Positions 566-52,813 of a stretch of DNA of 64,000 bases are shown here, piece by piece (position 1 is the stretch's first letter; every line of letters begins with the position of its first letter). The stretch is taken from positions 1 to 64,000 of the forward strand of contig JAGXGB010000081.1 of NCBI GenBank assembly GCA_024636955.1, read 5' to 3'. A program made the translations under genes and the position numbers. The stretch is from Bacteroidales bacterium (GTDB lineage: Bacteria > Bacteroidota > Bacteroidia > Bacteroidales > Lentimicrobiaceae). The notes under the pieces were generated by a model. It searched no databases, was not told the DNA's origin, and saw nothing but the letters and a program-made list of their open reading frames with translations.

Positions 566-784
566 ATGAATGAATTGAAAAAAAACAGAGGAAAGCTCGC
601 TTTCTTTGCTTTAGTGATGATTTGGGTTTTAAGCCCAACAGTTTCACAAGCCCAGTACTGGATGAGAACTTATGGGCATCTTGATAATTATTATTTAATC
701 AGGGACTCAACGGAGGCCTTTTTCAGTGCCGACACTTCCAGAATTCGAAACTCCGTTTACGGTTTTAAACATTTCCAACGGTGA
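566..784 (+). CDS. N-terminal fragment of a T9SS-exported beta-propeller protein (signal peptide part)
   Basis: A 72-residue open frame with a good Sec signal peptide (MNELKKNRGK..., hydrophobic core FFALVMIWVL, cleavage near SQA-Q). The C-terminal segment YGFKHFQR ends at TGA 782-784. In related Bacteroidota sortilin/BNR-type cargo the mature N-terminus typically carries a FKxFxRW..FxESRVD-like stretch, and the frame starting at 781 continues exactly there (KTFLESRVDANG). One extra G near 782 would give CGG TGG AAA and join the two as QRWKTF. I therefore read 566-5505 as one gene of about 1,647 residues, interrupted by a 1-base deletion or a sequencing error. As written, this fragment alone would be a secreted peptide without function. 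Confidence 0.75.
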   Translation: MNELKKNRGKLAFFALVMIWVLSPTVSQAQYWMRTYGHLDNYYLIRDSTEAFFSADTSRIRNSVYGFKHFQR

Positions 785-3700
785 AAACATTTTTAGAGTC
801 TCGTGTTGATGCAAATGGAACGCTGGCAACCTACCATCAAAATTTAGCGCAGGAATATGAAAATATTCTAATTACTGATGATGATAGAACACCGGGTCAA
901 TGGAACTCGTTGGGCCCAGTCACCGGCACTACAGGCGTACTTGCTGAATTAGGTATTGTGACATCACTTTTAGTAATAGATGATCAAAATATTTATGCGG
1001 GCACCGGTACAGCAGGATTATTTGTAACAAATAATGGAGGTGCAACATGGAGATCACTTACTGATAAATATCTTATAACAGGTATAGAGTCAATTATCAA
1101 GATTGACCCTGATACAATTTATATCGCTACTGGTTTTGACACCTGGGGAAAAGTGTACGGTAAAGGAATTTTAAAAAGTGAGGATAATGGGTTGACATGG
1201 AAAGATACAGGTCTTAATTCTAATTTTATAGATGGTAGTCCCTTTACTGTGAAAGGAATGATTGCTGACCCTGATTCATCTGGAACTTTTTATGCAATAG
1301 TTCAGGAGGAGAATAGAAGAAATGCCAGAATTGTAAAGAGTGTAGATACTGGAGTGACATGGGATGAAAAATACATTCAGTCGGATATAGATTTGCGAAA
1401 GATAGAAATGGATCCAACAAATTCGAACCGTATTATGGCCGCGGGGAGAGAATTGGTTATATCCAATGATAGGGGAAACAGCTGGCAAACGATTACATCG
1501 AGAATTCCTTATCAAGATATTTCAAATCAATGCGAACTTGATAGAATAACTATGTCATTCCACCCAACAATCCCTGATAGGATTTTGGTTGTTTTAAAAA
1601 AACGAAGTCCATTAGACGTTAACCAAAACACAGCTATTGATTTTTTTATATCAAATGATGGCGGTTTAAGGTTTAGCAGGTGTTCCTTTTTTTCTGACTC
1701 AATAAAGTCTAAGCAATTTACAGAAGACAAGCTCGAATTAGAATGGTCGAAAGCTCATGATGACTGTTTCTATATTGGGGGTTTATGGGTTCATAGTTTA
1801 AGATTGAGTGATACTAATGTGTTCGTTAACGATATAGGTTCTGGTTACCATGTTGATATACGATATTTGACTACTTACACCATTGAAGGTAAAGATTCAG
1901 ACGGTAACTCTCGCTATCTGGATGTGTTGTATCAAGGAAATGATGGTGGTATTACTAAAGGAGTTGAAAGTTCTGAGTCAGGAGTGATATGGCAGGATAT
2001 ATCAGGAACCGGGTTAAATATTACTCAGTATTATGGATTGGGTATTACGGAATCAGACCCTGAGTTATACCTTGGAGGAACACAGGACGGCAATCTTTTT
2101 ATTCATGATAGTACAGGCTGGCATAATAGAAGTAATACAGGTGATGCAGCAGATGCAGTTATTGATTATAACAATCCGGCTAATATTTATATGGTTCATT
2201 TTTGTGGAAGCTCCTACCTAACAATCTCAAAAGATTATGGCCAATCCTGGGATTACCATGAAGTTGGAATGCCCAATGAAGGTTGGTACCGAAGAAACGA
2301 CGGTCCTTTAGAAATGAGTAAAAGAGATCCATCTATCCTTTTTGTTGGCGGTAAGCAAGTGTATAAGTCAAAGCTAGATCAGCAAGGTAATTTAGTTTTT
2401 AATAAGATTTCTGATTTCGATGAAAAATATCCCTATTTTAAAACTATCAGAGTAGCAAAAAACTCAGATAATTTTATCATTGCCGGCAGGCAGAATGCTA
2501 TTTGGGGAGATACATTAAAAACAGCAAGACTTCATCTGACTCTTAACGGTGGTGCAGACTGGTATAATATCACTCCGATAGATATTTTAGATGATGCAGG
2601 CATTTTTGATATAGCCATTGATCCCAAAAAGCACAATAAATTTTATATTGCTCTAGATCGGTTCAATGCTAATAAGAAAGTCTATAAAGGAGAATGGGGT
2701 ATAAACGGCGATACAACGGTAACCTGGACTAACATGTCAGAGGGGCTACCCAATGTGCCTGTAAATTGTATAAAAATATACGAAGGTTCAGATGCTGAAG
2801 AAATGTTTGCAGGAACTGATTGCGGTGTTTACTATTATAATAAGGAAATAGGTAAGTGGATTAAATTTGGAAGAGGAATGCCGGTTTGTCCGGTAAGCGA
2901 CCTTGAAATTAACTACTATACCGGGCAGCTCATTGCTTCAACTTTCGGAAGAGGTATGTATAGAGCAGAGTTGTGCGAGATAGGACCGGCAGAATTAACC
3001 ATTTATATAGATACTATTCAAGTGTGGGAAGACACATTAAGGATACCTGCTGATATTATAATACAATCTGGCGGTAATTTGACGATAAAAGGTAAGATTC
3101 AGATGAAATATAATAAGTCAATAACTGTGCATAAAGGTGCTTTTCTAACTGTTGATGGAGGCACAATTACAAGTTATTGTTCAACTGAACCATGGAGTGG
3201 CATAAAAGTACTTGGAACAGCAAGCGGGGGACAAAGCCCATTATACCAGGGTGTAGTTTATCTTAAAAATGGTGCGGTCATTGAAAAGGCCAGAATTGGG
3301 GTGCATTGTCTTAACCCTGAAGACCCAACGGATAATTACCCGATAACCGGTGGTGGAATAATAATGGCAAATAATACAACATTCAAGAATAACATTACTG
3401 CCGTTCAGTTTGAACGCTATACTTATACTTCATCCATCAGTTTCTTTAAAAACTGTATATTTGAGACCATAGGTACTCCTCTGCCAAGCTATCCTAAAAA
3501 GTACTTTGTTAGATTAAATGAGCTTGCAGGGTTGTTTTTTGGAGCGTGCACATTCAAAAATGAAATTCTTGTAAATCCTTTTGAGAACTTTTTTATACCT
3601 CAACACGGCATCTACAGTGTCAATTCACATTTTGTAGTTGACGGGCAATGTCCTACAACTCCTTGCCCTCCAGAGTATAAGAGTAAGTTTGAGAACCTGG

Positions 3701-5505
3701 TTTATGGAATATATGTAAGCTCAAAACCAGGCACCAGAACTTTCAAGGTTACTAACTCAATTTTTACTAATAACGATTGTGGTATTTATGCTCTGAGCAC
3801 TGATAATGTCGATATCAGAGACAATGATTTTAATATTTGCACCCAAGCCGATCGTGCAACGGGCTTATATTTAGATCATTGTAATGGCTATGTAGTAGAG
3901 GAGAATGAATTTAGATTGACTGAAGTTGTTGGACAACAACCTTCACGAGGAATATACGTGAATGAGAGTGGCCCATATAACAATACTCTTTACCTCAACA
4001 AATTCAATAGTTTAACCTATGGTATTGTAGCAGAAGGATGCAACCGCTCCATTGACGGTTTTGATGGACTGCAGTTGAAGTGCAACACATTTGAGTACAC
4101 ATATAATGACATAACTGTCTTACCTGATTCTTTATTGATAAGTAGTTTAGGAGTTGCAAAAGATCAAGGCAGAGCAGGCGCTAAATTTTGTGACCAACTG
4201 GCAGGAAACACCTTCTCGCAGTTCGACAGTTGCGCGTTCCATTTTTACAATGGACCTTTTAATACGGTGAATTATTATTTTTTGAGATCAAATAATAATA
4301 TGAAGCCACAAAAAAATGTCCGTGTTAAGGTTTCAGGGGAAATTCCTGAATATCCCGGTGATTGCTGTCCTCCAAATGCATATGGAGGAGGCGGTTCAGG
4401 GACTATCGACATGGCAACCATGGAATATAATGTTGAATATCAGGAAACTTCAGCAGAACTTGACTCACTGATAGATCAGGGAGAAACCGACAGTAAACTT
4501 TTCACTATCAATACTGCTATACCTGATGAAGGACTTTCAATCACAGGGGATTTGCTACAAACATCACCTTATGTTTCAGATACGGTAATTAAGAAGACCA
4601 TTGAACGGGAGGATGTTATTACCAACAGTATGTTAAGGGATATTATGGTTGCTAATCCGCATTCAGCAAAATCAACGGAAATGATTGATCAGCTAGATGC
4701 AAGATATGACCCTATGCCTCAATACATGAAGGATGAGATATTGGAAGGGCAATCGATCGAGTCTGCCAGGGAGCACAAAGAAGCAGAACGCAATCTCCTC
4801 AAGCGCGCATACGAATATGGCGTTCACAGGCAGCTTGCCCAATTGTTAACAGATTCGCTCAGAGCTGAAAATGACTCTATCACACTCTTGCTTGAATCAG
4901 ATGGTAGCTTCAATTCGCAGTTGAAATTGGCATGGCTTAGTTTTGAAAATGGAGATACTTTACAAGCCCTTAACTATATATCATCATTGGATACATTGTT
5001 TGAGCTGAATAGCATAGAATCATCTGAGGTAAATAGTCAATCAGATTTTATGCAGTGGATTGTTAATAATCCTGTTTTTGATACTACTCAGATTGAAACC
5101 TTGCTTCTTTTCAGGGTAAGTTCATCTCACAAAGTTTCTTCTGCTGCCATTGGTATTTTACTGGCCAATGATATTCCAATTTATAATGAACCTTATTCTG
5201 TTATTGATTTAAGCAAAGCTTCTGACCTGATTAAGGTAAAAGAAGAAAAGCGTTCAACAGAATATGTAATTGTAACTCCAAATCCTGCTAAGGACTTTAT
5301 TACCGTAAAGTATGCAAGCGAAACAAAGACCTCCGATATTAAGATCTTTAATGAAGAAGGGAAGTTGGTTTTAACAAAAGGTATTCAAAAGCAAATGGAT
5401 GAAATAACCTTAAATACCCGTGATTATAAACCCGGTGTTTACTTCATTATGATGTTGTCAGACAAGGGTAAAGCTTGTTCATCGAAGTTCATAATTACAA
5501 AATAA
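781..5505 (+). CDS. large T9SS cargo protein: beta-propeller, beta-helix and C-terminal sorting domain (body of the split gene)
   Basis: A 1,574-residue frame whose apparent GTG start overlaps the stop of the signal-peptide fragment (GTGA). It has no signal peptide of its own. Residues about 60-740 hold many BNR/Asp-box-like motifs (TNNGGATW, SEDNGLTW, SNDRGNSW, SKDYGQSW) typical of sortilin/VPS10-like propellers. Residues about 790-1200 resemble a right-handed parallel beta-helix. The last 80 residues (TPNPAKDFITVKY ... KPGVYFIMML ... KFIITK) are a type A T9SS sorting domain. The protein is probably surface-attached or secreted, and its ligand is unknown. Secretion requires the upstream signal peptide, so the frame break at 779-784 matters. 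Transcription probably ends at the hairpin at 5516. Confidence 0.8.
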   Translation: MKTFLESRVDANGTLATYHQNLAQEYENILITDDDRTPGQWNSLGPVTGTTGVLAELGIVTSLLVIDDQNIYAGTGTAGLFVTNNGGATWRSLTDKYLITGIESIIKIDPDTIYIATGFDTWGKVYGKGILKSEDNGLTWKDTGLNSNFIDGSPFTVKGMIADPDSSGTFYAIVQEENRRNARIVKSVDTGVTWDEKYIQSDIDLRKIEMDPTNSNRIMAAGRELVISNDRGNSWQTITSRIPYQDISNQCELDRITMSFHPTIPDRILVVLKKRSPLDVNQNTAIDFFISNDGGLRFSRCSFFSDSIKSKQFTEDKLELEWSKAHDDCFYIGGLWVHSLRLSDTNVFVNDIGSGYHVDIRYLTTYTIEGKDSDGNSRYLDVLYQGNDGGITKGVESSESGVIWQDISGTGLNITQYYGLGITESDPELYLGGTQDGNLFIHDSTGWHNRSNTGDAADAVIDYNNPANIYMVHFCGSSYLTISKDYGQSWDYHEVGMPNEGWYRRNDGPLEMSKRDPSILFVGGKQVYKSKLDQQGNLVFNKISDFDEKYPYFKTIRVAKNSDNFIIAGRQNAIWGDTLKTARLHLTLNGGADWYNITPIDILDDAGIFDIAIDPKKHNKFYIALDRFNANKKVYKGEWGINGDTTVTWTNMSEGLPNVPVNCIKIYEGSDAEEMFAGTDCGVYYYNKEIGKWIKFGRGMPVCPVSDLEINYYTGQLIASTFGRGMYRAELCEIGPAELTIYIDTIQVWEDTLRIPADIIIQSGGNLTIKGKIQMKYNKSITVHKGAFLTVDGGTITSYCSTEPWSGIKVLGTASGGQSPLYQGVVYLKNGAVIEKARIGVHCLNPEDPTDNYPITGGGIIMANNTTFKNNITAVQFERYTYTSSISFFKNCIFETIGTPLPSYPKKYFVRLNELAGLFFGACTFKNEILVNPFENFFIPQHGIYSVNSHFVVDGQCPTTPCPPEYKSKFENLVYGIYVSSKPGTRTFKVTNSIFTNNDCGIYALSTDNVDIRDNDFNICTQADRATGLYLDHCNGYVVEENEFRLTEVVGQQPSRGIYVNESGPYNNTLYLNKFNSLTYGIVAEGCNRSIDGFDGLQLKCNTFEYTYNDITVLPDSLLISSLGVAKDQGRAGAKFCDQLAGNTFSQFDSCAFHFYNGPFNTVNYYFLRSNNNMKPQKNVRVKVSGEIPEYPGDCCPPNAYGGGGSGTIDMATMEYNVEYQETSAELDSLIDQGETDSKLFTINTAIPDEGLSITGDLLQTSPYVSDTVIKKTIEREDVITNSMLRDIMVANPHSAKSTEMIDQLDARYDPMPQYMKDEILEGQSIESAREHKEAERNLLKRAYEYGVHRQLAQLLTDSLRAENDSITLLLESDGSFNSQLKLAWLSFENGDTLQALNYISSLDTLFELNSIESSEVNSQSDFMQWIVNNPVFDTTQIETLLLFRVSSSHKVSSAAIGILLANDIPIYNEPYSVIDLSKASDLIKVKEEKRSTEYVIVTPNPAKDFITVKYASETKTSDIKIFNEEGKLVLTKGIQKQMDEITLNTRDYKPGVYFIMMLSDKGKACSSKFIITK

Positions 5506-5515
5506 TTTCTAACTT

Positions 5516-5545
5516 GCGGGGTTGAATTTCTCAACCCCGCTTTTT
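5516..5545 (+). terminator. intrinsic terminator with 10-bp perfect stem
   Basis: A perfect inverted repeat GCGGGGTTGA / TCAACCCCGC (5516-5525 and 5531-5540) with a 5-base loop is followed by TTTTT at 5541-5545. It lies 10 bases after the stop at 5505 and ends 9 bases before the ATG at 5555. The next gene would therefore depend on read-through or on a promoter inside the upstream coding region. Confidence 0.85.
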
Positions 5546-5554
5546 CCCATTTCT

Positions 5555-7135
5555 ATGAAAAATATTATAACCATCATACTGATGCTTTATGGAAGCATTG
5601 CTTTCTCTCAAACCTGGGAGAGAATAATAGGCATGCAGAATAGACCTGAGGCATTCCAGAATTTTTGTGAAAGCTATGACCAGGGATTTCTTGTGTTAGG
5701 AATTAAAGAATTCTCTCCTGATCTAAAAGGATTTGTTGTTAAAACGGATATAAATGGGTATCCACTTTATGAATTGACCTTAGGAATAAATAATACTCAA
5801 AAAACTGTTCCTCAACAATTGTATTCAACAAATGATGGCGGAATGATTATTTGTGGTGCTCATGAAAAGTGGTCTTCAATTGAGGATGTAGGTATCATAA
5901 AACTCAATGCCTGTGGCGATCTTGAATGGTGTAAAATATGGAGAACAGATGATTTTTCTGACTGGGGAAATGAAATTCATCAATTGGATGATGGCGGTTA
6001 TATCATGCTTGCGCATAGGAATACCGATTCAACACATGTTTTTCTTTTTAGGCTTGATAGTAATGGCCACCCACTATGGATTGAGCCATACGTTAACCTG
6101 AATCAGTATCCGGTTTCTTCACCTGGTACTGATGATCTTTTCCTGACAATGCAGGATAAGTATTTGCTTAGTGGTTATTGCTGGTGGTGTGATAGCACAC
6201 AGTGGTGCAGGCTGAAAGCAATGGTGATTCAAGTTGATACTTCAGGTACGGAAGAATGGGTATCTGTTTTTATGGCTGAAGATATCACCTATTATTCAGA
6301 CGGTAATAGTGGTATACAAAAAGGAAGTGGTAATTATTATGTAGGTGCTACCAAGCCCACTGGTGGAGATTATCCCCCAATGTTAATTGTAATAGATACA
6401 CTAGGAAATTTCCTGAGTGATACGCTTGTGCAAATACCTGATATTGGAGATTATTATGCTGAAGGTTATTTACAGGATTTGTTTTTTTTACCGGATGGAA
6501 GGTTATTCACGCATATAGATATGATAAATAATCCCTCTGACTATATTGGGCATTTTAGCTTGCATGAAATAGATTCGCTAGGTGGTTGGCATAATACCTT
6601 TTTCCGTGAGAATGCACATAGTTACAGGTCGAAAACCATTCTAACATCAGATGGTAAAATACTCGCCGGTTCAGTGGTGGGTGCTACAGCCATTGCCCAG
6701 GATATAATACTAATGAAGCTTAACACCTCCCTTGAATACGACAGCATTTACACTGTTCCGAGGGTTTATGACTACCTGTGCCCTGATACTATTGTTTCAA
6801 AAACAATTGATTTGGATTGCGAGGTTATTGTTGATGTAAAGGATATTCCAACACGTGAGGAGTACAACAGGTCGATAAGGCAAATATACATTACTCCGGC
6901 GCCTAATCCCGCAACCGAAGAGATCAGGTTTATGCTCAGAAATACGGAACACCACAAAAACATCAGCATCATCTGTTACGATACACACGGCCGGCAAATG
7001 AGCATGGTTGGAGTTAATTCAGGTATTACTGAAAAAACAATGGATATTTCTTCATGGACTCCCGGCATTTACATGGCTATTGTATATGCAGGAAATCAAA
7101 AAGTGGGAAGTGCAAGGTTTGTTAAAGCTAATTAG
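5555..7135 (+). CDS. T9SS sorting-domain secreted protein of unknown function
   Basis: About 526 residues from the ATG at 5555. An in-frame TTG at 5522 lies inside the terminator hairpin and is unlikely to be the start. The N-terminus MKNIITIILMLYGSIAFSQ is a signal peptide. The body has repeated segments of the type DGGMIICGA, DDGGYIMLAHR and DGKILAGS, suggesting a propeller like those in Bacteroidota outer-surface proteins. The C-terminal 80 residues (PAPNPATEEIRFML ... WTPGIYMAIVYAG ... ARFVKAN) form a type A T9SS sorting domain. Cargo only: no catalytic motif was recognised. It probably forms a unit with the 153-residue protein three bases downstream. Confidence 0.85.
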   Translation: MKNIITIILMLYGSIAFSQTWERIIGMQNRPEAFQNFCESYDQGFLVLGIKEFSPDLKGFVVKTDINGYPLYELTLGINNTQKTVPQQLYSTNDGGMIICGAHEKWSSIEDVGIIKLNACGDLEWCKIWRTDDFSDWGNEIHQLDDGGYIMLAHRNTDSTHVFLFRLDSNGHPLWIEPYVNLNQYPVSSPGTDDLFLTMQDKYLLSGYCWWCDSTQWCRLKAMVIQVDTSGTEEWVSVFMAEDITYYSDGNSGIQKGSGNYYVGATKPTGGDYPPMLIVIDTLGNFLSDTLVQIPDIGDYYAEGYLQDLFFLPDGRLFTHIDMINNPSDYIGHFSLHEIDSLGGWHNTFFRENAHSYRSKTILTSDGKILAGSVVGATAIAQDIILMKLNTSLEYDSIYTVPRVYDYLCPDTIVSKTIDLDCEVIVDVKDIPTREEYNRSIRQIYITPAPNPATEEIRFMLRNTEHHKNISIICYDTHGRQMSMVGVNSGITEKTMDISSWTPGIYMAIVYAGNQKVGSARFVKAN

Positions 7136-23767: not shown

Positions 23768-24406
23768 ATGGACGATTTTCTATATATTATACTTGGGATA
23801 GCATGGTTGGCATATTCACTTTATACAAACAAGCAGAAGCTTGATAAGAAGAGGGCTGAACGTGAAGCACAGATGAGGGGCGGTACTCCTCAGAGCCATG
23901 ATATTGATGAAGATTACCAAAGAACTGAAGATGAGTACCGAAAGGCAGAGGATGATTACAGGAGAGCAGTTGACGAGCCACGCCCTCATGTTGAAACACC
24001 GAGAAGGCAAGAGACCACCCACCGCAGGCCTGAAGAAGAGTATATGCCGTTGCCCAAAAAAACACTTTTTGATGAACTCTTTGGGGATCAATCTTCACCT
24101 TATCAGGAGGCGGAAGAGGAAACCTACATTCCTGAAATAAATGAGCAAACCTGGCAAAAGAAAATGTCGGAGTACGCTGGTGTTGAGGCTGCTTCAATGG
24201 AGGAGATAAAGGACGAAGTGCCACTAGATTACTTTACACGACAATATGAAGAAGTATATAAGTCTGCAGACCATAGGGTTATTAACAGTATGCAGGATTA
24301 TGAAGAATATTATCAGATTCAGGAGGTTCAGGAAGATTTTGACCTGAAAAAGGCTGTAATTTACAGCACAATCCTTAGAGCCCCATATGTTTCGGAAGAG
24401 GTTTAA
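23768..24406 (+). CDS. membrane-anchored charged protein of unknown function
   Basis: 212 residues. One N-terminal membrane segment (DDFLYIILGIAWLAYSLYTN) is followed by a long, charged, probably disordered region (EDYQRTEDEYRKAEDDYRRA with repeats of the type (E/D)-Y-R-x-A) and a small C-terminal region ending in DLKKAVIYSTILRAPYVSEEV. The KKAVIYSEIL..PY-like C-terminus is common to short uncharacterised Bacteroidota proteins (recall). The gene precedes the TonB-receptor locus by 118 bases. Confidence 0.6.
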   Translation: MDDFLYIILGIAWLAYSLYTNKQKLDKKRAEREAQMRGGTPQSHDIDEDYQRTEDEYRKAEDDYRRAVDEPRPHVETPRRQETTHRRPEEEYMPLPKKTLFDELFGDQSSPYQEAEEETYIPEINEQTWQKKMSEYAGVEAASMEEIKDEVPLDYFTRQYEEVYKSADHRVINSMQDYEEYYQIQEVQEDFDLKKAVIYSTILRAPYVSEEV

Positions 24407-24524: not shown

Positions 24525-27500
24525 ATGATCAGAAATCTTCTACTAACTTTTTGGTTGGTACTGACAGCGAATCTGTTAGTGTTCTCTCAATCGGGAACAC
24601 TCAGAGGAAAAGTCATCGACAAGGACACTAAAGAACCTATTCCTTTTGTGAACATAGTCGTTGAACTAGGCGGAACTCAAGCTGGAGGTACAACATCTGA
24701 CTTTGATGGTAATTACACCATTAAGCCGATTACTCCCGGTAAGTACGACTTGAAAGCCACATACGTGGGCTTCAAGCCAGTATTGGTCAAGGGTATTCAA
24801 ATAAAATCAGACCAGATAACTTTCTCCGATATTATTATGGAGTCAACAATGGTGGAACTCACCGAATTTGAAGTTGTTGATTACAAGGTTCCCCTCATTG
24901 ATAAAGATAAAACTTCAGTAGGGGCAACAGTTACTTCAGAGGAGATTGCGAAGATGCCAAACCGGTCGGCCAATGCTGTTGCTGCAACTGTGGGAGGTGT
25001 ATTCTCTGCCGACGGAGAGCGCGGAAGTGTTCGTGGTCAGCGATCAGAAGGTACCATCATGTACATTGACGGTATAAGGGTTCGCGGAACATCTTCACTG
25101 CCTGAATCAGCTATTGAACAGGTATCAGTTATTTTATCAGGAGTTCCTGCTCAGTACGGTGATGCAACAGGTGGTATTATCAATGTAACTACAAAAGGCC
25201 CTAGTCGTGAATTCGGTGCAGGTATTGAGTTGCAGACCTCAGAATACCTAGATGCCTTTGGATATAACCGTGGTGGACTTAATATGCAAGGACCACTGCT
25301 ATGGAGTCGCGATGAGAATGGTGAAAAGAAAACTGCCCTATTAGGCTATTTTATTGCAGGTGAGATCACCTACAACAGGGACAGCAGACCAACTGCAACA
25401 GGTGCTTATGTAGCAAAAGATGATATCCTGAGCAGTCTTGAACAAAATCCCTTGCGTTTAACCGGTACAGGTTTTGGTACATATTATAATACCAATTTTA
25501 TAAGGAAAGAACACCTTGATTTCGTGAAAGCAAACCCTAACACACAAAGTTATGATATCAATGCTTCAGGAAAGTTGGATGTAAAAACAGGTCCTAACGT
25601 AAACTTGTCATTCGGAGGTTCAATAAATACATACGACAGGAGCAATTACAGTTTCCTGAATGCAATGTTCAATTCAGCAAAGAATGTGCAGGTTATGGGA
25701 AATACCTGGAGGGTGTTTGGTCGTTTCACACAACGCTTCCCTGCTGATCCTGACGGAAAATCACTCATAAAGAATGTGTATTACACCATTCAGGCTGACT
25801 ATACTAAATCAATGCAAACTGTTCAGGATCCTGACCATAAAGACGAAATGTTCCGATATGGTTACCTTGGAAAATATGAAACCTCCACAGTTAGATCATT
25901 TACGAATGAAATGATGCTGGATACCGCAAGTGGTATGACAGCATATATCCACAATGGTTTCAGAGATATTGGCGTTAAATACACCCCCGGAGAATTCAAT
26001 CCGGTGACTGCTAACTACACTCGTCAGTATTATGAATTATTTCCATCACTACAGTACCACTCTGACCTGAGTAGTATTATTGAAGGCGGAGGTTTATTGA
26101 ATGGTATGGGTGCCGGTGGAGCTTATAATATTTTTGGTGTTCCGGGAGCAATACAATCTAATTACCAGGTAGTAGATCAGGAACAATATGCACTCAATGC
26201 AAATGCATCAGCTGATATAGGAAACCATGCATTCCAGTTCGGTTTTATTTATGAGCAACGTGTTGACAGGTTCTTCTCATACAATCCTGTTGGATTCTGG
26301 TCATTAATGAGAGGTCTTACCAATTCACATATCCAGCAGCTTGATGTTGCCAATCCAAATTTTGTTACGCTTGACGGTGTATTTATGGATACCATTTATT
26401 ATGACCGTAAATATGACCAGGTATCACAGCGTAATTTCGATATTAATCTGCGCGAAAAACTCGGACTTCCTGTAAGTGGTACCGATTGGATCGATATTGA
26501 TTCCTATGACATGAATTCCTATACCATCAATTATTATGATGAGAATGGAAGGCTGGTTACTAAGGCATTAGATGGCCCATTGGATATAAGTATGTTAAGC
26601 CCCGATGAACTTTACAATAATGGTGGTTTACTTGCAAATTATAGCGGATACACCTATACCGGTGAGCGCACTAAACTCAGTGAAAGCCCAAGTTTTGATG
26701 ACTTCTTCAATAAGAGGGATGAAAACGGTATGTATACCCGTGAGATTGCACCATTTACTCCTATTTATATGGCGGGTTACATTCAGGATAAGTTTGCCTT
26801 TGAAGACCTTATTTTCAATATTGGATTACGTGTTGACAGGTTTGACGCTAACCAAAAGGTTTTAACCGATCCATATACTTTATATCCTGCAAAGACTGTA
26901 AGTGAAGTAGGAGACCTTGGATCACATCCTGCTAATATGGGTGATGATTTTGTTGTATATGTTGACAACCAACGCAACCCAACAACAGTTATGGGTTATC
27001 GCGATGGAAACAATTGGTACAATGCTGAAGGTTTGGTAGTAACTGACCCAACCATTGCATTAGATGCCGGTAATGGAGTTATACCATATCTTGTAAATAA
27101 AGATAACCTGGTAGTTTCATCTGATGCATTTAGCGACTATGAACCACAGATTTCTGTGATGCCGCGTGTATCATTCTCATTCCCGATTTCAGATGAAGCG
27201 TTGTTCTTTGCCCATTATGATGTACTTACTCAGCGCCCAACATATGCTTTACGCATGAGTCCGCTTGATTATTACTTCCTTCCTTTAACAGGAAGTCCGG
27301 ATATTAGCAATCCAAACCTAAAGCCTGAAAAGACTATTGACTACGAATTAGGATTCCAACAGCGTTTGTCACCAAGCTCATCAATGACGATTTCAGCTTA
27401 TTACCGTGAAATCCGTGACCAGATACAGGCTTTCCGCTACACTGCCGCATTCCCTAAAACCTATTATTCTTATAATAATATAGACTTTTCAACTGTAAAA

Positions 27501-28229
27501 GGGGTAACATTAACTTACGACATGCGTCGTACAACCAACACAAGGGTTAGGGCTAGTTATACATTACAGTTTGCCAACGGTACAGGCTCAGATCCTGAAT
27601 TTGCAAAAGGTTTGATCCAAACAGGTCAGCCTAACTTGCGTACATTGTTCCCAATGAGTTTTGACCGCCGCCACGCTGTTAACGTAATGCTTGATTATCG
27701 TTTTGGTGAAGGTAAGGAATACAATGGACCAGTTATCAGACGTTCAAGGACTGATGCAACCGGACAAGAGGTTGTTAAGTCAACCAGGCTACTGCAAAAC
27801 ACCGGTGTTAACTTTACAGTATTCGGTGGATCAGGTACTCCTTATACCCGCTCAAGTAAGATTGTTGCCATTGGACAATCAGGTATTATTGACGGATCAA
27901 TCAATGGTTCACGGTTACCATGGCAGTTCAGGATTGACGGTCGCGTTGACAAAGACATCAACATCAACTGGTCAGAGAATAGATCATCATTCCTAAATCT
28001 GTACGTACAGGTGCTCAATATTTTTGATTCCAAAAATATCATGGGCGTATACGGAGCAACAGGTAACCCTGATGATGATGGATATCTGGCAGCTGCAGAA
28101 TACCAGCAGTTTATTAATACTCAGCTCGATTCACAGGCTTATCGTGATCTCTATAGCATCAGGGTTAACAGCCCGGGCAATTATAGCTCACCACGCCAGA
28201 TTCGTTTTGGTTTAATACTGAACTTCTAA
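24525..28229 (+). CDS. TonB-dependent outer-membrane receptor with carboxypeptidase-regulatory-like domain
   Basis: 1,234 residues. Signal peptide to about residue 22 (LLVFSQ). Residues 24-110 form the CarboxypepD_reg-like domain (GTLRGKVIDKDTKEPIPFVN ... GKYDLKATYVGFKP). The plug follows at about 115-230 (VGGVFSADGERGSVRGQRSE, IDGIRVRGTSSLPESAIEQV, GIINVTTKGP) and then a large barrel ending RQIRFGLILNF with the C-terminal aromatic. It imports or binds an unknown ligand using TonB energy. No SusD partner follows. Instead a giant secreted protein and a PorV-family barrel are next, 36 and about 50 bases apart, suggesting one transcription unit. Confidence 0.93.
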   Translation: MIRNLLLTFWLVLTANLLVFSQSGTLRGKVIDKDTKEPIPFVNIVVELGGTQAGGTTSDFDGNYTIKPITPGKYDLKATYVGFKPVLVKGIQIKSDQITFSDIIMESTMVELTEFEVVDYKVPLIDKDKTSVGATVTSEEIAKMPNRSANAVAATVGGVFSADGERGSVRGQRSEGTIMYIDGIRVRGTSSLPESAIEQVSVILSGVPAQYGDATGGIINVTTKGPSREFGAGIELQTSEYLDAFGYNRGGLNMQGPLLWSRDENGEKKTALLGYFIAGEITYNRDSRPTATGAYVAKDDILSSLEQNPLRLTGTGFGTYYNTNFIRKEHLDFVKANPNTQSYDINASGKLDVKTGPNVNLSFGGSINTYDRSNYSFLNAMFNSAKNVQVMGNTWRVFGRFTQRFPADPDGKSLIKNVYYTIQADYTKSMQTVQDPDHKDEMFRYGYLGKYETSTVRSFTNEMMLDTASGMTAYIHNGFRDIGVKYTPGEFNPVTANYTRQYYELFPSLQYHSDLSSIIEGGGLLNGMGAGGAYNIFGVPGAIQSNYQVVDQEQYALNANASADIGNHAFQFGFIYEQRVDRFFSYNPVGFWSLMRGLTNSHIQQLDVANPNFVTLDGVFMDTIYYDRKYDQVSQRNFDINLREKLGLPVSGTDWIDIDSYDMNSYTINYYDENGRLVTKALDGPLDISMLSPDELYNNGGLLANYSGYTYTGERTKLSESPSFDDFFNKRDENGMYTREIAPFTPIYMAGYIQDKFAFEDLIFNIGLRVDRFDANQKVLTDPYTLYPAKTVSEVGDLGSHPANMGDDFVVYVDNQRNPTTVMGYRDGNNWYNAEGLVVTDPTIALDAGNGVIPYLVNKDNLVVSSDAFSDYEPQISVMPRVSFSFPISDEALFFAHYDVLTQRPTYALRMSPLDYYFLPLTGSPDISNPNLKPEKTIDYELGFQQRLSPSSSMTISAYYREIRDQIQAFRYTAAFPKTYYSYNNIDFSTVKGVTLTYDMRRTTNTRVRASYTLQFANGTGSDPEFAKGLIQTGQPNLRTLFPMSFDRRHAVNVMLDYRFGEGKEYNGPVIRRSRTDATGQEVVKSTRLLQNTGVNFTVFGGSGTPYTRSSKIVAIGQSGIIDGSINGSRLPWQFRIDGRVDKDININWSENRSSFLNLYVQVLNIFDSKNIMGVYGATGNPDDDGYLAAAEYQQFINTQLDSQAYRDLYSIRVNSPGNYSSPRQIRFGLILNF

Positions 28230-28265
28230 TTAAGACTTGTAAATAGAATAGATCACAATATACTA

Positions 28266-31200
28266 ATGAATATGAAAAATATACTCCGAATTACATTTGC
28301 AGTTATACTGCTTAGTATTCTGGCAGTGCCTGTGTTCGCCGACTATAATAAAAGTGGGGGCAATAAATCATCAGGACCTGTAGTTAAATCTACTGCAGCG
28401 GGCTGCTTACCCGGTGCCGGATTCAAATATCTTGAAGTAAATAATGTAAGAGCACGTATCAACACTGGTGGAGATATGTGGTGGGACTTTGAAGTTGCAC
28501 AGTACGAGATCCCTAAAGGGTCGCGCAAGACTTCTATGTTTGCCGCAGCACTATGGATTGGTGGTATTGATGAAAACGACCAGTTAAAGCTAGCTGCCTT
28601 GAAATTCCGCCAAGGTCCTAATGCACAATCACCAGGTACTGGTAATGATTTCTGGCCTGGTCCGCTAACGGTAGACAATACTGCCGCTATTGATGAGGCT
28701 ACTTGTGCTGAATATGATAAGCATTTCCCAATCAGCAGAAGAGAAGTTGATGAGTTTGTTGCATGGCAGGATAATAAAGCTGCTTTCCCAAATTACCAAA
28801 TACCAGCTTCAATCCTTAACTGGCCCGCTCATGGTGATATATCCAAAAAACAAAGTTATTACCTTGCTCCTTTCTTTGATGCTGATGGAAGTATGCATTA
28901 TAATCCTGAAGATGGAGGAGATTACCCATATTATGACCTTGCAAATGAACTATGTCATTCAGCAACTGCAACCATGGAGACCATTGAAGGTACTTCAAAA
29001 GGTGGTTTGCTTTCTGACCAGGTTATTAAGGGTGATGAAACACTTTGGTGGGTATTCAATGATAAAGGAAATATACATACTGAGACTCAAGGTACACCTA
29101 TTGGACTTGAGATAAGGGCGCAGGCTTTCGGGTTTGCCACCAATGATGAGATCAATAATATGACATTCTACAGTTATGAAATCATCAATCGTTCAACATA
29201 CCGTTTAAGAGATACTTATTTCAGTCAATGGGTTGATACCGACCTTGGTTTCGCAACTGACGATTATGTTGGCTGTGATGTTAACAGGGGTTTAGGTTAT
29301 TCATACAACGGAAAGCCTAAAGATGGTGACGGACAGTTCTGGGCATACGGTGATCAGCCTCCTGCAATTGGAGTTGACTTTTTCCAGGGACCTTATATGG
29401 ATCCTGACGGTTCAGATAATCCATCATTTAATGGAGAAGGTATATTAGGCCCTTCATTCTTTGGCGATTGTAGCATAGTTGGTTTGAACGGTTCTTCAAT
29501 GGGCTTTGAATATGGTACAGAGCAAGATCCTCAAGCAGGTAACTTTATTGTTCGTTCAGAGGCTATCAATGGCGTTAACTTTGGTAATGGTATTGTAGAT
29601 GATGAGCGTTTTGGTATGCGCAGGTTTGTATACCATAACAATAGTACTGCAGGTGCTTTCCCATTCCAGCTTGACCCTGCTTATGCTCCACAATATTACA
29701 ATTATCTTAAAGGTATCTGGATGGATAACACCAAGATGATCTATGGTGGAAACGGGCATTTATCTGCAGGTGGATACGGTCCAGCAGCAGATTTCATGTT
29801 TCCAGGTTTAACAGATGAGTGCGATTGGGGTACCAATGGTTTACCACCAGCAGGACCTAAAGACTGGACAGAAGAAATTGCAATGAATCAACCAAACGAC
29901 CGTCGATTCATGCAGTCAGCAGGTCCTTTCATCCTTGAACCGGGTGCAGTAAACTATATTACAGTTGGTATTCCCTGGGCTCGTGCATCTTCAGGTGGAC
30001 CATGGGCTTCTGTAAAGCTTCTTCAGGTTGTTGACGACAAATGCCAGCTATTGTTTGATAACTGTTTTGCTGTCGTTAGTGGACCTAATGCACCTGATCT
30101 TACAATTCGCGAACTTAATGAAGGCTTGATTTTCTATATCAGCAACCGTAAGACAAATGATGCAGGTAACAACCTCAACGAAAGTTACAAAGAACTAGAC
30201 CCTGCTATTAAGGCAGTAGCCAACAGTACAGGTTATGACTTTGATCCATACTACCGTTTTGAAGGATATCAGATCTTCCAGTTAAAAGATGCAACAGTTT
30301 CAGTAGCTGATATTCATGATCAGAAGCTTGCACGTATAGTATATCAAACTGATGTTAAAAACAAAGTTACTCAGCTTGTTAATCATAATTTCGACCAATC
30401 GCTCAATGCAAATGTACCTGTTGAAGAAGTAAATGGAAGCGACCTTGGAATACGTCATACTTTCAGATTGACTGAAGATGCGTTTACCGGTCAAACACTG
30501 GTTAACCATAAACAGTACTATTATCTGGCTCTTGCATACGGATATAATGAGTACATGATATATAGCGCCGATCCTGGATCTCAGGAACCGGGAATTATTG
30601 GAATGGAAGGCCAGAAAAGAGTTTATTTGGCCGGTAGAAAGAATATAAAGGTATACACTGCTATCCCTCATAAGAATGTTGGTACTATTCAGGCTAATGC
30701 AGAATATGGCGATGGCGTTGAAATTACACGCCTTCAGGGTCAGGGTAACGGCGGCAATGTATTAGACCTTACTGATGCCACTATTGCTGAAATATTGAGC
30801 AAAAATCCGGTTGATTCTACTAACCAGATGGGTAGCCCTGATTATCCTATTGCATATGAAGCTTCATACAAACAAGGAAAAGGTCCTATAGATGTAAGAG
30901 TAATTGATCCTTTGAATGTTATTGGCGGTGAGTTTATACTGGCTTTTGATTCGCTGGTTCCTTATTATCAGCAAGTTGGTGCCGACAGTACTATTAATTA
31001 TAAAGCTCACTGGCATTTAACTGACATAACAAGCAGCAAGACCTATCATTCTGATACAACAATCTCGTATAAAAATGAGCAAATGATACCTGAGTTAGGT
31101 ATCGCTATAACCATACATGAGCCTTTGCAAAATGGTCCTATCAGAGTTGGTTCTAATGGCGATGCTAGTATTTTTGAAGTAATTAATGATAACAACGGAT

Positions 31201-32567
31201 TACTGGAATCAACCTTTACATTCAGTGACAGTACTAAGCCATGGTTACTTGGAGTACCTGATATAGATGGTTTGCCTGCATTGAACTGGATTAGATCAGG
31301 TGTTGTAGATGACGTATCAAATCCGGCTAATAGTGACTATAAAATTTCAGTACCAGGTGGTAGTACTTTTGCTGACCCGAACTCAAATTATGAAAAAATA
31401 GTTGCAGGAACATGGGCTCCATACATCATGACGGCAACTAGTGAACAGGATCCGCTTTATGCTCCTGCTTACAGGAATATATCCAAGGTATCAGCAAGAT
31501 TGTCTGATGTTGCAAGTGTTGACATCGTTTTTACATCTGACAAGTCAAAATGGACCAGGTGTCCTGTTGTTGAAATGAGTGCAGATAAAACCTTATCCGA
31601 AGGTGGAGTTGATAGATTTAACATACGTGCAGGTGCTTCAGTAAACGTAAATGGTGAGGCAGGTGTTACCAGTAGTGATCCAATGTTAAACTCCAACTAT
31701 ATTAATGAAACCGGCATGGGTTGGTTCCCTGGTTATGCTGTGAACGTTGAAACTGGTGAACGCCTCAATATATTGTTTGGAGAGAATTCATGGTTAGCTG
31801 GTGACAATGGTCGCGATATGCTATTCAATCCTTCTTCAAGAATCACAACTCCTGGTGGAGACCTTGTTCTTGGAGGTATGCACTACTTGTATGTATTTGC
31901 ACATACAACTGGTAAAGCAGTAGCTATTGCGAATATACCGGCGTATGATGCAGGTGCTACACTTAGAGCAAATATTCCGGTTACACTTGGTGCTGGAACA
32001 CAACGCGCGCTCGTATATTCAAGTGCAATGTACGTTAATATGCCTATTGCAAACCCGGAACATCCATGGCTTGTTACTGATGCAAAAGTACGTATCAGGA
32101 TGATTAAACCATATCTGCGTTATTACAGCGTTTCCCATGAAGGAATGCCACTTCTGGCTGACGACGTGGAGAATGGAAACTATCCTATGTATAGTTTCAG
32201 TACAAAAAGCATTGCTACTACTGATGATAACATTACCAAGGCACAGTCAGATCTTGATCTTATCAATGTAGTTCCGAATCCTTACTATGCTTATTCAGCT
32301 TATGAAACCAACCAATTGGATAACAGGGTTAAAATTACCAATCTGCCTCGCAGATGTACTGTTACGATATATTCAACCAATGGTTCTATGATCAGGCAAT
32401 TTACAAAGGATGAGTCAGGAACTGCCATTGAATGGGATCTTAAGAATCATGCTGGTATCCCTATAGCAGGTGGTGTTTATCTCATACATGTTAAGGCTGA
32501 CGGAGTAGGTGAAAAGATTGTTAAATGGTTTGGTTCACTAAGACCTATTGACCTTAACGCGTTTTAG
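28266..32567 (+). CDS. giant secreted protein with FlgD/T9SS-like C-terminal domain, function unknown
   Basis: 1,433 residues with signal peptide (ILRITFAVILLSILAVPVFA). The N-terminal domain (GGDMWWDFEVAQYEIPKGSR, AALWIGGIDENDQLKLAALK) is characteristic of very large surface proteins that accompany TonB receptors and PorV-family barrels in Bacteroidota. The C-terminal region (NVVPNPYYAYSAYE ... VKITNLP ... GGVYLIHV) is a FlgD-Ig/T9SS-like sorting domain. No enzymatic motif recognised. Start: ATG 28266 or 28272. Context suggests surface display of the protein at the receptor. Confidence 0.8.
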   Translation: MNMKNILRITFAVILLSILAVPVFADYNKSGGNKSSGPVVKSTAAGCLPGAGFKYLEVNNVRARINTGGDMWWDFEVAQYEIPKGSRKTSMFAAALWIGGIDENDQLKLAALKFRQGPNAQSPGTGNDFWPGPLTVDNTAAIDEATCAEYDKHFPISRREVDEFVAWQDNKAAFPNYQIPASILNWPAHGDISKKQSYYLAPFFDADGSMHYNPEDGGDYPYYDLANELCHSATATMETIEGTSKGGLLSDQVIKGDETLWWVFNDKGNIHTETQGTPIGLEIRAQAFGFATNDEINNMTFYSYEIINRSTYRLRDTYFSQWVDTDLGFATDDYVGCDVNRGLGYSYNGKPKDGDGQFWAYGDQPPAIGVDFFQGPYMDPDGSDNPSFNGEGILGPSFFGDCSIVGLNGSSMGFEYGTEQDPQAGNFIVRSEAINGVNFGNGIVDDERFGMRRFVYHNNSTAGAFPFQLDPAYAPQYYNYLKGIWMDNTKMIYGGNGHLSAGGYGPAADFMFPGLTDECDWGTNGLPPAGPKDWTEEIAMNQPNDRRFMQSAGPFILEPGAVNYITVGIPWARASSGGPWASVKLLQVVDDKCQLLFDNCFAVVSGPNAPDLTIRELNEGLIFYISNRKTNDAGNNLNESYKELDPAIKAVANSTGYDFDPYYRFEGYQIFQLKDATVSVADIHDQKLARIVYQTDVKNKVTQLVNHNFDQSLNANVPVEEVNGSDLGIRHTFRLTEDAFTGQTLVNHKQYYYLALAYGYNEYMIYSADPGSQEPGIIGMEGQKRVYLAGRKNIKVYTAIPHKNVGTIQANAEYGDGVEITRLQGQGNGGNVLDLTDATIAEILSKNPVDSTNQMGSPDYPIAYEASYKQGKGPIDVRVIDPLNVIGGEFILAFDSLVPYYQQVGADSTINYKAHWHLTDITSSKTYHSDTTISYKNEQMIPELGIAITIHEPLQNGPIRVGSNGDASIFEVINDNNGLLESTFTFSDSTKPWLLGVPDIDGLPALNWIRSGVVDDVSNPANSDYKISVPGGSTFADPNSNYEKIVAGTWAPYIMTATSEQDPLYAPAYRNISKVSARLSDVASVDIVFTSDKSKWTRCPVVEMSADKTLSEGGVDRFNIRAGASVNVNGEAGVTSSDPMLNSNYINETGMGWFPGYAVNVETGERLNILFGENSWLAGDNGRDMLFNPSSRITTPGGDLVLGGMHYLYVFAHTTGKAVAIANIPAYDAGATLRANIPVTLGAGTQRALVYSSAMYVNMPIANPEHPWLVTDAKVRIRMIKPYLRYYSVSHEGMPLLADDVENGNYPMYSFSTKSIATTDDNITKAQSDLDLINVVPNPYYAYSAYETNQLDNRVKITNLPRRCTVTIYSTNGSMIRQFTKDESGTAIEWDLKNHAGIPIAGGVYLIHVKADGVGEKIVKWFGSLRPIDLNAF

Positions 32568-32614
32568 TGCATTGTAATGAACATTGAAAAAAAACACACA
32601 ACAAATTATTGGTT

Positions 32615-33670
32615 ATGAATAAGATCTCTAAATACATAGTTGCCACCCTGATGATAGGATCAGTATTGATCCCGTTTAACCAGTCAACTGCCGGTAATAA
32701 GGACAGAACCGGTCAGGCAGGTGCATCAGAATTACTTATCAATCCCTGGGCAAGAAGTTCAGGGTGGGGTGGAGCCAACATCGCTCATGTAAAAGGTTTG
32801 GAAGGCCTTTACGGTAATGTTGCTGGTATTGCCCATACCAAAACAACTGAACTTATTTTTTCACACACGCAATGGCTCAAGGGTAGCGAAATTGATATAA
32901 ATACCTTTGGGCTTACTCAAAAGGTGGGTGAAACTGGTGTTCTTGGATTGGGAATCATGTCAATGAATTTCGGAGATATTCCTATCACCACTGAAGCATT
33001 GCCGGAAGGTGGCATTGGAAACTTTTCTCCTAGCTACATGAATATCAATATCGCTTATGCAAAAGCTTTCTCGAGTTCTATATATGGGGGTATTAATATT
33101 AAGATCATTTCGGAAGTTATCTCTGACGTAAGTGCACAAGGGGTTGCTATTGATGCAGGTATTCAGTATGTTACAGGCCCTGTTGATAACATCAGGTTTG
33201 GTATCACCTTGCGTAACGTTGGACCTACCATGTCATTTAGCGGTGACGGTTTGTCTATACGTAGTTTGCTTCCCGGACAGGAAAGTTACTTTACCCTTGA
33301 ACAGCGTTCAGCAGAGTTTGAGTTGCCAACTCAATTGGCAATGGGTGCATCATACGATTTCTTTTTTGGTGAGATGCACAGGTTGACTTTTGCAGGTAAT
33401 TTTATTTCAAATTCATTTACCAATGATCAGTTTGCAGGTGGTGCAGAATACGAATTAAAATCGTACCTCATGTTAAGAGCCGGTTATACTTATGAAGATG
33501 GAATCACCTCAAGCAGTAGGACAACCGCTTTTACTGGTCCCAGTGCTGGTTTAACAGTTTCTGTCCCTATAAATAAGGAAAAAGGTTCAACCCTTGCAAT
33601 TGATTATTCATTTCGTCAAACAAGTCCATTTAACGGCACACACAGTATAGGTGCCCGCATAAACTTGTAA
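32615..33670 (+). CDS. PorV/PorQ-family outer-membrane protein
   Basis: 351 residues from the ATG at 32615 (the preceding TTG is not needed). Signal peptide followed by GQAGASELLINPWARSSGWG and LYGNVAGIA, the N-terminal pattern of PorV/PorQ-like (UPF0164-related) 14-stranded barrels. The C-terminus DYSFRQTSPFNGTHSIGARI ends with a barrel strand. PorV itself is the T9SS shuttle that delivers cargo from the translocon to the attachment complex. This paralogue, encoded right after a large T9SS-like protein, may serve as a dedicated shuttle for it (inference). Confidence 0.85.
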   Translation: MNKISKYIVATLMIGSVLIPFNQSTAGNKDRTGQAGASELLINPWARSSGWGGANIAHVKGLEGLYGNVAGIAHTKTTELIFSHTQWLKGSEIDINTFGLTQKVGETGVLGLGIMSMNFGDIPITTEALPEGGIGNFSPSYMNINIAYAKAFSSSIYGGINIKIISEVISDVSAQGVAIDAGIQYVTGPVDNIRFGITLRNVGPTMSFSGDGLSIRSLLPGQESYFTLEQRSAEFELPTQLAMGASYDFFFGEMHRLTFAGNFISNSFTNDQFAGGAEYELKSYLMLRAGYTYEDGITSSSRTTAFTGPSAGLTVSVPINKEKGSTLAIDYSFRQTSPFNGTHSIGARINL

Positions 33671-33704: not shown

Positions 33705-33738
33705 AGAAAGGACCCTTGTAACAAAGGGTCTTTTCTCT
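33705..33738 (+). terminator. intrinsic terminator after the receptor/PorV locus
   Basis: GACCCTT (33711-33717) pairs with AAGGGTC (33724-33730), flanked by AAAG/TTTT that extend the stem, and followed by TTTTCT. It lies 41 bases after the PorV-family stop and before greA, closing the 24.5-33.7 kb unit. Confidence 0.8.
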
Positions 33739-50656: not shown

Positions 50657-52813
50657 ATGAAGCAAGACGACACAAACAGCAGAAAGGACAATGATCCTGG
50701 AAGTGAGGATCATTTAACTACCAATCAAGGTGTTAGGATAAACAATACTGATGATTCTCTTAAAGTAGGATCACGCGGGCCAACACTAATGGAAGATTTT
50801 CATTTTCGTGAGAAGATGACTCACTTTGATCATGAGCGCATTCCTGAAAGAATTGTTCATGCCCGTGGTTCAGCGGCTCATGGAGTTTTCAGGGTATATG
50901 ATGATTCAATGAAAAAGTATACCAAAGCAAGATTCCTCACTGATCCATCAATTGAAACTCCTGTTTTTACCAGATTCTCTACTGTTGTAGGATTCAGAGG
51001 TTCAGCTGATACTGTTAGAGATGTAAGAGGGTTTGCGACCAAGTTTTATACGGTTGAAGGGAATTATGATCTGGTAGGTAATAATATGCCGGTTTTCTTT
51101 ATTCAGGACGGCATAAAGTTTCCTGACCTGGTTCATGCAATTAAACCTGAACCTCATAATGAAATGCCTCAGGCATCTGCTGCACACGATACTTTTTGGG
51201 ATTTCATTTCATTGATGCCTGAAACGATACACACGATAATGTGGGTACTTTCTGACCGGGCTTTACCAAGAAGCTATAGTATGATGGAGGGATTCGGAGT
51301 TCACACTTTTAAACTGATCAATAGCAGTGGTGAAGCTCACTTTGTAAAATTTCATTGGAAGCCCCTGGCTGGAGTTTATTCTGTAACATGGGATGAAACC
51401 CAAAAGATTGCGGGTGCTGATCCCGATTTTAACAGGCGTGATCTTTGGGAGTCAATTGAAATGGGAAATTACCCTGAGTATGAATTCGGTGTTCAGATAA
51501 TTAATGAAAGCGAAGAGTTCGACTTTGCCTTTGATTTGCTGGACGCAACAAAACTCTGGCCCGAAGAATTAGTGCCTGTCAAAAAAATAGGGAAAATGGT
51601 GCTAAACCGTAATCCTGATAATTTCTTTGCTGAAACTGAGCAAGTAGCGTTTCATCCCGGTAACCTTGTGCCCGGAATAGATGTCACTAACGACCCACTT
51701 CTGCAGGCAAGATTATTTTCATACCTTGATACTCAACTGATACGTCTGGGTGGCCCTAACTTTACTGAAATTCCGATTAATCGTCCTCATGTAGATGTAT
51801 CAAATAATCAACGAGATGGACACATGCGCCAGACAGTTAATAAGGGTCGTGTTAGCTATTCTCCTAATTCGTTAGGCGATGGTAAGCCTATGACTACTCC
51901 TAAGAGCGAAGGGGGTTATGTACATTATAATGAGAAGGTTGAAGGAGCAAAGATTCGTGAAAGAAGCATTAGTTTTAAAGACCACTTCAGTCAGGCCACA
52001 ATGTTTTATAATAGCCAAACTCCAACCGATAAGAAGCATATTCTGGAAGCATTTGAATTTGAATTAGGGAAAGTAGAAGCAATGGCCATTCGCGAAAGAA
52101 TGGTTGAACTTATTGCGAACGTTGATATTGATCTTGCAAAAGAAGTTGCCAAGAGGATTAATGTTGAATATACATCCATTGGCATCATTGAAAAAGCAGG
52201 TGATGCCGATAAAAACATTAAAGACCCACTAGCACCAGATAAGAAAAAGAAAAGTGTTGATGTTTCACCTGCCTTAAGTCAGGAAAATCATAGGGCTAAT
52301 TCATTAAAAGGGAGAAAAATTGCTGTGTTGCTGGCTGAAGGGTTCAATGACAATGAATATAAAACTTTCAAAAAGCACATGGACACCCTGGGTGTTAAGA
52401 CTGTGGTTATTTCAAAAATGCTAGGTGAATTGAAAGGAAATGGCGCAGACAAAGTATCAGTTGATAAAAGTTTCGTTACCACATCTTCGGTTTTATACGA
52501 TGGATTATACGTACCGGGCGGTGCAGCACACATACAGGCCTTAAGCAAACAGGGCGACGCAATTCACATGATAAATGAAACGTACAAGCACTGCAAGGTT
52601 ATTGGGCTAATAAGTGAAGCAGTTAACTTACTCGGAGTAGCTGATTTAAGTGGCATTAAAGAATCAAACACTGATGGAGTTAACATTAATATGGGTGTTA
52701 TTAGCTTGGTTGATTCAAAAGATATAACCGACTTCAACACATCTTTTGAAAATGCATTACGGCGATATCGCCATTGGGATCGTGAAGATTACATAGAGCA
52801 TGTCCCTGCTTAA
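50657..52813 (+). CDS. katE: large-subunit (clade 2, HPII-type) catalase
   Basis: 718 residues, the size of HPII catalases. Catalytic His68 in [14 protein letters not shown], the [19 protein letters not shown] segment and the heme-ligand [15 protein letters not shown] are all present. The C-terminal 160 residues ([44 protein letters not shown]) form the flavodoxin/DJ-1-like domain specific to large catalases. It lacks the DJ-1 cysteine, as is normal there. Degrades hydrogen peroxide in the cytosol and implies oxygen exposure. Ends at a strong terminator. Confidence 0.96.

Follow-up and report, generated by a model that had tools for sequence, protein, structure and literature searches.

The genes for a TonB-dependent receptor (TBDR), a giant secreted protein and a barrel of the PorV/PorQ family lie next to each other in a genome of the Lentimicrobiaceae (Bacteroidales), and this triad is a conserved unit across much of the Bacteroidota phylum. 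The interpretation slightly favored here is that the three genes encode one outer-membrane capture-and-uptake assembly without SusD, in which the giant is held by a dedicated barrel and partners the TBDR. A search of the open literature found no paper describing this TBDR-giant-barrel cassette, although it may have been described elsewhere.

Organization of the locus

The analyzed DNA (the window) comprises 64,000 nucleotides of a fragmented draft assembly of 83 contigs. The TBDR and giant genes are separated by 36 bases, and the giant and barrel genes by 47 or 41 bases, depending on whether the ATG or the TTG start of the barrel is used (Table 1). The initial annotation, which described three adjacent genes with gaps of 36 and 47 bases closed by a terminator, was borne out by the open reading frames and the hairpin downstream. 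Its statement that no SusD is present holds for the triad, where none was detected by Pfam or NCBIfam, but not for the genome, which has four SusD matches elsewhere. The Bacteroidetes -33/-7 promoter pattern had three matches in the window, which is the chance level, and none at the triad.

Table 1. Features of the TBDR-giant-barrel locus, in window coordinates.
Feature	Position	Strand	Details
TBDR gene	24525-28229	+	1234 aa
Giant secreted protein gene	28266-32567	+	1433 aa
PorV/PorQ-family barrel gene	32615-33670	+	ATG start; in-frame TTG start possible at 32609
N-terminal CarboxypepD_reg-like domain of TBDR	24603-24872	+	Pfam PF13715, 57.8 bits (cut-off 32.2)
TBDR plug domain	24924-25178	+	Pfam PF07715, 30.7 bits (cut-off 23.9)
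C-terminal sorting domain (CTD) of giant, residues 1318-1433	32217-32564	+	conservation, Foldseek, PorZ profile
C-terminal helix of giant, within conserved tail WFGxxRPxDLxxF	32544-32561	+	alignment and model
Intrinsic terminator closing the triad	33705-33736	+	32-base hairpin, 13-pair stem, T-rich tail

Directly upstream of the TBDR lies a small gene (23768-24406, 212 aa, with an N-terminal hydrophobic stretch), which has a weakly conserved counterpart (30-44% identity) at the equivalent position of most loci of the genus, and may be part of the triad unit. The window copy of the triad is single-copy and adjoins GreA and HIT genes, with no carbohydrate genes beside it. Elsewhere in the window, two adjacent genes (781-5505 and 5522-7135) encode secreted proteins with type IX secretion system (T9SS) type A tails above cut-off, the first having sortilin-like and right-handed beta-helix/NosD regions, and the gene at 50657-52813 encodes an ordinary large-subunit catalase with a DJ-1/PfpI C-terminal domain.

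The receptor and the giant protein

In the TBDR, a CarboxypepD_reg-like domain (residues 27-116) is followed by a plug (134-218) and a barrel (PF00593), all three scoring above their Pfam cut-offs. The SusC/RagA models of NCBIfam, searched at E values up to 0.1, gave no match to this receptor.

The giant is a multi-domain, mostly beta protein, with no Pfam domain above cut-off and no match in a sequence search of the PDB. Its hydrophobic N-terminus with a VFA-type end was read by eye as a putative Sec signal peptide, and a lipobox near the N-terminus was found in none of 148 giants. The protein was modelled as two overlapping halves from 51-row alignments, covering residues 26-790 (pLDDT 86.8, pTM 0.86) and 785-1433 (pLDDT 87.3, pTM 0.83), and the last ~112 residues formed a T9SS-type beta-sandwich in the model.

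A FlgD/T9SS-like C-terminus had been proposed in the initial annotation. By sequence the resemblance was below threshold (Por_Secre_tail, E 0.059; FlgD_ig, E 0.074; type A CTD model TIGR04183, 18.4 bits vs a cut-off of 23); the predicted structure supported it. In Foldseek searches, the second half of the giant matched PorZ (5m11, E 6.6e-6) and FlgD, and the CTD matched the sorting domains of NucA (8glk_D, TM 0.67 over that domain) and RemZ (8gl8_D, TM 0.69 over that domain) inside the T9SS translocon. According to the model and Foldseek, the giant thus ends in an Ig-like beta-sandwich sorting domain, and it would be exported through SprA. The best curated match of the C-terminus was that of PorZ (E 2.8e-8); against the complete PorZ model (NF052228) the giant reached 32.7 bits with a cut-off of 260, the C-terminal part alone being matched.

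The CTD (last 116 residues) was the most conserved region of the giant, with a mean column identity of 73% compared to 51% for the whole protein. The extension WFGxxRPxDLxxF, which runs past the type A CTD, is conserved in Bacteroidia and absent from most distant relatives, and is partly helical in the model (helix 643-648, with a pLDDT of only ~50 at that end).

Fold searches with the first half of the giant gave marginal matches, nearly all of them to carbohydrate-active enzymes (dextran dextrinase 9ju0 at E 1.1e-3, GH116, GH94). Since these matches were marginal, with TM ~0.24, a carbohydrate-binding fold is not claimed.

Distribution and linkage of the triad

Profiles of the giant CTD and of the barrel were searched in a sample of 297 genomes from across the phylum. 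The CTD was found in 146 genomes and the barrel in 143, with 139 having both (p about 5e-70 for co-occurrence, uncorrected for relatedness). SprA was present in every genome with the CTD (146/146) and every genome with the barrel (143/143), and absent from 68 of the 297. The window genome has the T9SS translocon, SprA_N being detected at E 1.7e-170.

Complete triads in the gene order of the window were recovered 148 times. Among 173 CTD-bearing ORFs from all fetched loci, a set that was partly fetched via the barrel (L191-L230), the barrel directly followed in 159 of the 169 with downstream room, and a TBDR directly preceded in 121 of the 125 with upstream room. When loci were fetched by the CTD alone (L231-L270, n = 40), the barrel lay directly downstream in 28; one locus (L255) had the order TBDR-barrel-giant, another (L260) had the barrel nearby, and 10 had no barrel, one of these being at a contig end. 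The barrel was also missing from six of 80 named loci (L166, L177, L183, L185, L186, L188). The absence of an adjacent barrel from about a quarter of the CTD-only loci and from these six indicates that the barrel can act in trans, or that canonical PorV may suffice. The initial annotation would have been undermined if the PorV-like gene showed no link to the giant in other genomes; the co-occurrence and the adjacency in most loci uphold this link strongly.

Each of the 18 genus mates had the giant, and of 41 further families sampled from the order, about a third had it complete or nearly so. In loci of the genus and order, contig permitting, full-length giants were flanked by a TBDR and a PorV-like barrel, arranged as in the window, down to ~40% identity. 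The downstream genes greA and HIT were usually kept, and the triad outlasted their loss in four loci (L041, L056, L075, L076). Within the class the cassette was usually single-copy; outside it many genomes carried several, with up to 15 CTD matches per genome. In 40 of 42 cases the nearest relatives of a cassette barrel sat in other genomes, so the cassette types predate the genera. Receptor, giant and barrel diverged together, with pairwise distance correlations of 0.945, 0.924 and 0.921; like the counts above, these values are uncorrected for relatedness.

Local duplication was seen in some cassettes, as a second giant homolog directly or one gene past the barrel (L142, L182, L190) or as two tandem barrels (L173). 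Two loci in multi-cassette genomes (L249, L260) had tandem near-identical giants with no adjoining barrel.

Homologs of the giant body with ordinary type A tails were also encountered, and none of those fetched had TBDR and barrel neighbors. The smaller proteins of this kind were rejected as members for that reason, and their position outside TBDR-barrel units is a naturally occurring hint that the barrel tracks the tail rather than the body. In two loci (L061, L065), proteins with the N-terminal body of the giant and type A tails adjoin C10-family peptidases with CUB domains, and in a third (L060) a truncated giant homolog adjoins an oppositely oriented C10 peptidase gene.

Neighboring genes and possible ligands

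Genes adjoining the cassettes were sampled from multi-copy relatives, related genomes included. Downstream of the barrel (n = 46) they encoded GH16 (8), malectin (8), CBM20 (5), CBM48 (3), GH9 (2) and T9SS tail (19) proteins, and upstream of the receptor (n = 33) CBM9 (10) and T9SS tail (20) proteins. In one lineage GH16-malectin-tail proteins lie beside the cassette, and in another starch-binding CBM20/48/53 proteins. The GH16, GH9, malectin and starch-binding neighbors of some distant copies suggest glycan uptake, and some multi-copy relatives probably handle polysaccharides. Further cassettes adjoin genes for GWxTD proteins, peptidyl-prolyl isomerases or multihaem cytochromes, indicating that not every cassette need serve glycans.

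SusD genes were fewer where cassettes were many: the Spearman correlation was -0.66 across genomes with SprA and -0.62 inside a single family, and SusD was absent from 23 of 26 genomes of two cassette-rich families. This complementarity is only suggestive, because family means from outside the class gave a correlation of 0.00. It is tentatively proposed, at somewhat less than even confidence, that a SusD-independent surface uptake architecture, pairing TonB receptors with a T9SS-delivered capture or lid protein and a dedicated third-class PorV-family barrel, is widespread in Bacteroidota and serves polysaccharides in place of SusCD in several lineages.

The distribution also bears on an alternative in which the barrel is a dedicated shuttle or anchor, but the unit is structural or maintains the envelope, like PorZ on PorQ, with the TBDR as a scaffold. 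This is unlikely. It would suit a cassette that is single-copy in the genus of the window and in many Bacteroidia, is found throughout the 18 genus mates, adjoins the housekeeping genes greA and HIT, and has a CTD whose best curated match is PorZ. The receptor, however, keeps its plug and barrel above the Pfam cut-offs, and the divergent lineages of multi-copy relatives adjoin glycan-active genes. Moreover, a full-length giant is missing from the majority of the 41 further families sampled, which argues that the giant is not essential housekeeping.

The PorV-family barrel

The resemblance of the third gene to PorV, proposed in the initial annotation, was confirmed as kinship within the family. 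The barrel passed the PorV/PorQ family model NF033709 (148.5 bits, cut-off 90), and missed the cut-offs of the PorV equivalog NF033710 (63.4 vs 250 bits), the PorQ equivalog NF033711 (70.3 vs 220), PorV2 (47 vs 325) and PorP/SprF TIGR03519 (17.5 vs 90.55). The barrel sequence alone gave nothing useful against the PDB; its profile matched PorV (6h3i) at E 1.4e-13 and TodX at ~0.07.

Besides the triad barrel, the window genome holds one PorV (491.7 bits) and one PorQ. Matches to both were present in all 25 cassette-bearing genomes examined, and were over each cut-off in 23. In a maximum-likelihood tree, PorV (24 sequences), PorQ (15) and the cassette barrels (91) formed three exact groups with support of 1.0, 0.999 and 0.98, so that the placement of the barrel in a third clade, neither PorV nor PorQ, is well supported by these sequence comparisons. 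An identity as BamG was rejected, the window protein being unmatched; weak matches occurred in two distant cassettes.

Weak Toluene_X/FadL matches to Pfam were also seen in the barrel, and barrels of the PorV family are FadL-like (PMC9143113). The barrel could accordingly be pictured as a channel of the FadL type that takes in a small or hydrophobic compound as a third uptake component, with the giant exported by the canonical PorV that the window genome does contain. The profile match strongly preferring PorV to TodX, the position of the barrel directly 3' of a CTD gene, an arrangement shared with type B cargo, and the presence of SprA in every barrel-bearing genome make this improbable. It is very improbable that selection on expression alone maintains the adjacency as an ancient operon, with PorU processing the giant, which would then be released or bound to LPS in the manner of ordinary type A cargo and enter no physical complex. 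CTD proteins without an adjacent barrel occur, and PorV and PorQ are present, but many family-level groups share the gene order, which also survived a paralog divergence predating the genera, and the homologous-body proteins with a type A tail have no TBDR or barrel neighbors.

Proposed mechanism

In the capture-and-uptake assembly favored here, the giant would be exported by Sec and, once the T9SS has recognized its C-terminal beta-sandwich, would travel through SprA. The PorV-family barrel dedicated to it, whose gene follows directly, would then collect the giant and retain it at the surface, where the giant would partner the TBDR as a capture or lid component, the role played by SusD lipoproteins in SusCD. 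The proposal of the initial annotation, a dedicated shuttle displaying the giant at the receptor to capture a ligand, is thereby partly supported: the type B CTD/PorP precedent argues strongly for the barrel as the putative dedicated shuttle of the giant, and ligand capture by the giant at the receptor is plausible. Weighing against the assembly are the loci with no adjoining barrel, the lack of carbohydrate genes beside the window copy, the loss of the SusD anticorrelation among family means outside the class, and the absence of a confident fold match for the N-terminal half of the giant. Shuttle specificity, surface retention, receptor contact and uptake are inferred.

If true, this interpretation would join T9SS secretion and TonB-dependent nutrient uptake, two fields that have been studied apart. 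It would give a function to many unassigned barrels annotated as PorV/PorQ family, for which some genomes have 20-40 candidate places, and would explain how SusD-less Bacteroidota lineages, which often have multiple cassettes, could capture large substrates. Cargo specificity of T9SS carriers beyond type B signals would also become testable.

Comparison with known systems

For type B T9SS cargo, a PorP/SprF-like barrel is required; the barrel gene usually lies directly downstream, and the barrel doubles as the anchor of the cargo (PMC12618676, PMC9143113). As in the type B pairs SprB-SprF and PG1035-PorP, the triad has a T9SS cargo gene with a carrier or anchor barrel directly downstream, and orphan cargo occurs in both. 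Unlike type B, the triad has a CTD with a PorZ/type A-like beta-sandwich fold, its barrel belongs to the PorV/PorQ family, and a TonB receptor is included.

PorV collects type A cargo inside SprA (PMC10994853). The triad barrel is homologous to this shuttle, but it scores 63 bits vs a cut-off of 250 and is separated from PorV in the tree, and a genuine PorV is encoded elsewhere in the genome.

In the T9SS attachment complex, the tail of PorZ stays uncleaved on PorQ, and it has been hypothesized that cognate PorV-like barrels shield tails from cleavage (PMC10202324). The giant CTD has its closest curated and structural match in PorZ, and PorQ is itself a PorV-family barrel holding an uncleaved CTD. 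The triad differs from this pair in its scores (giant 32.7/260 bits for PorZ, barrel 70/220 for PorQ) and in the separate clade of its barrel.

With SusCD/RagAB the triad shares a TonB receptor with a CarboxypepD_reg-like domain and a putative surface partner, and some relatives lie beside glycoside hydrolases and starch-binding proteins. In contrast to SusCD/RagAB, there is no SusD and no lipoprotein partner, the receptor is unmatched by SusC models, and the partner is predicted to be exported by the T9SS. By analogy, the triad looks like a PorV-family counterpart of the type B cargo/PorP-SprF pairing, tied to a TonB receptor.
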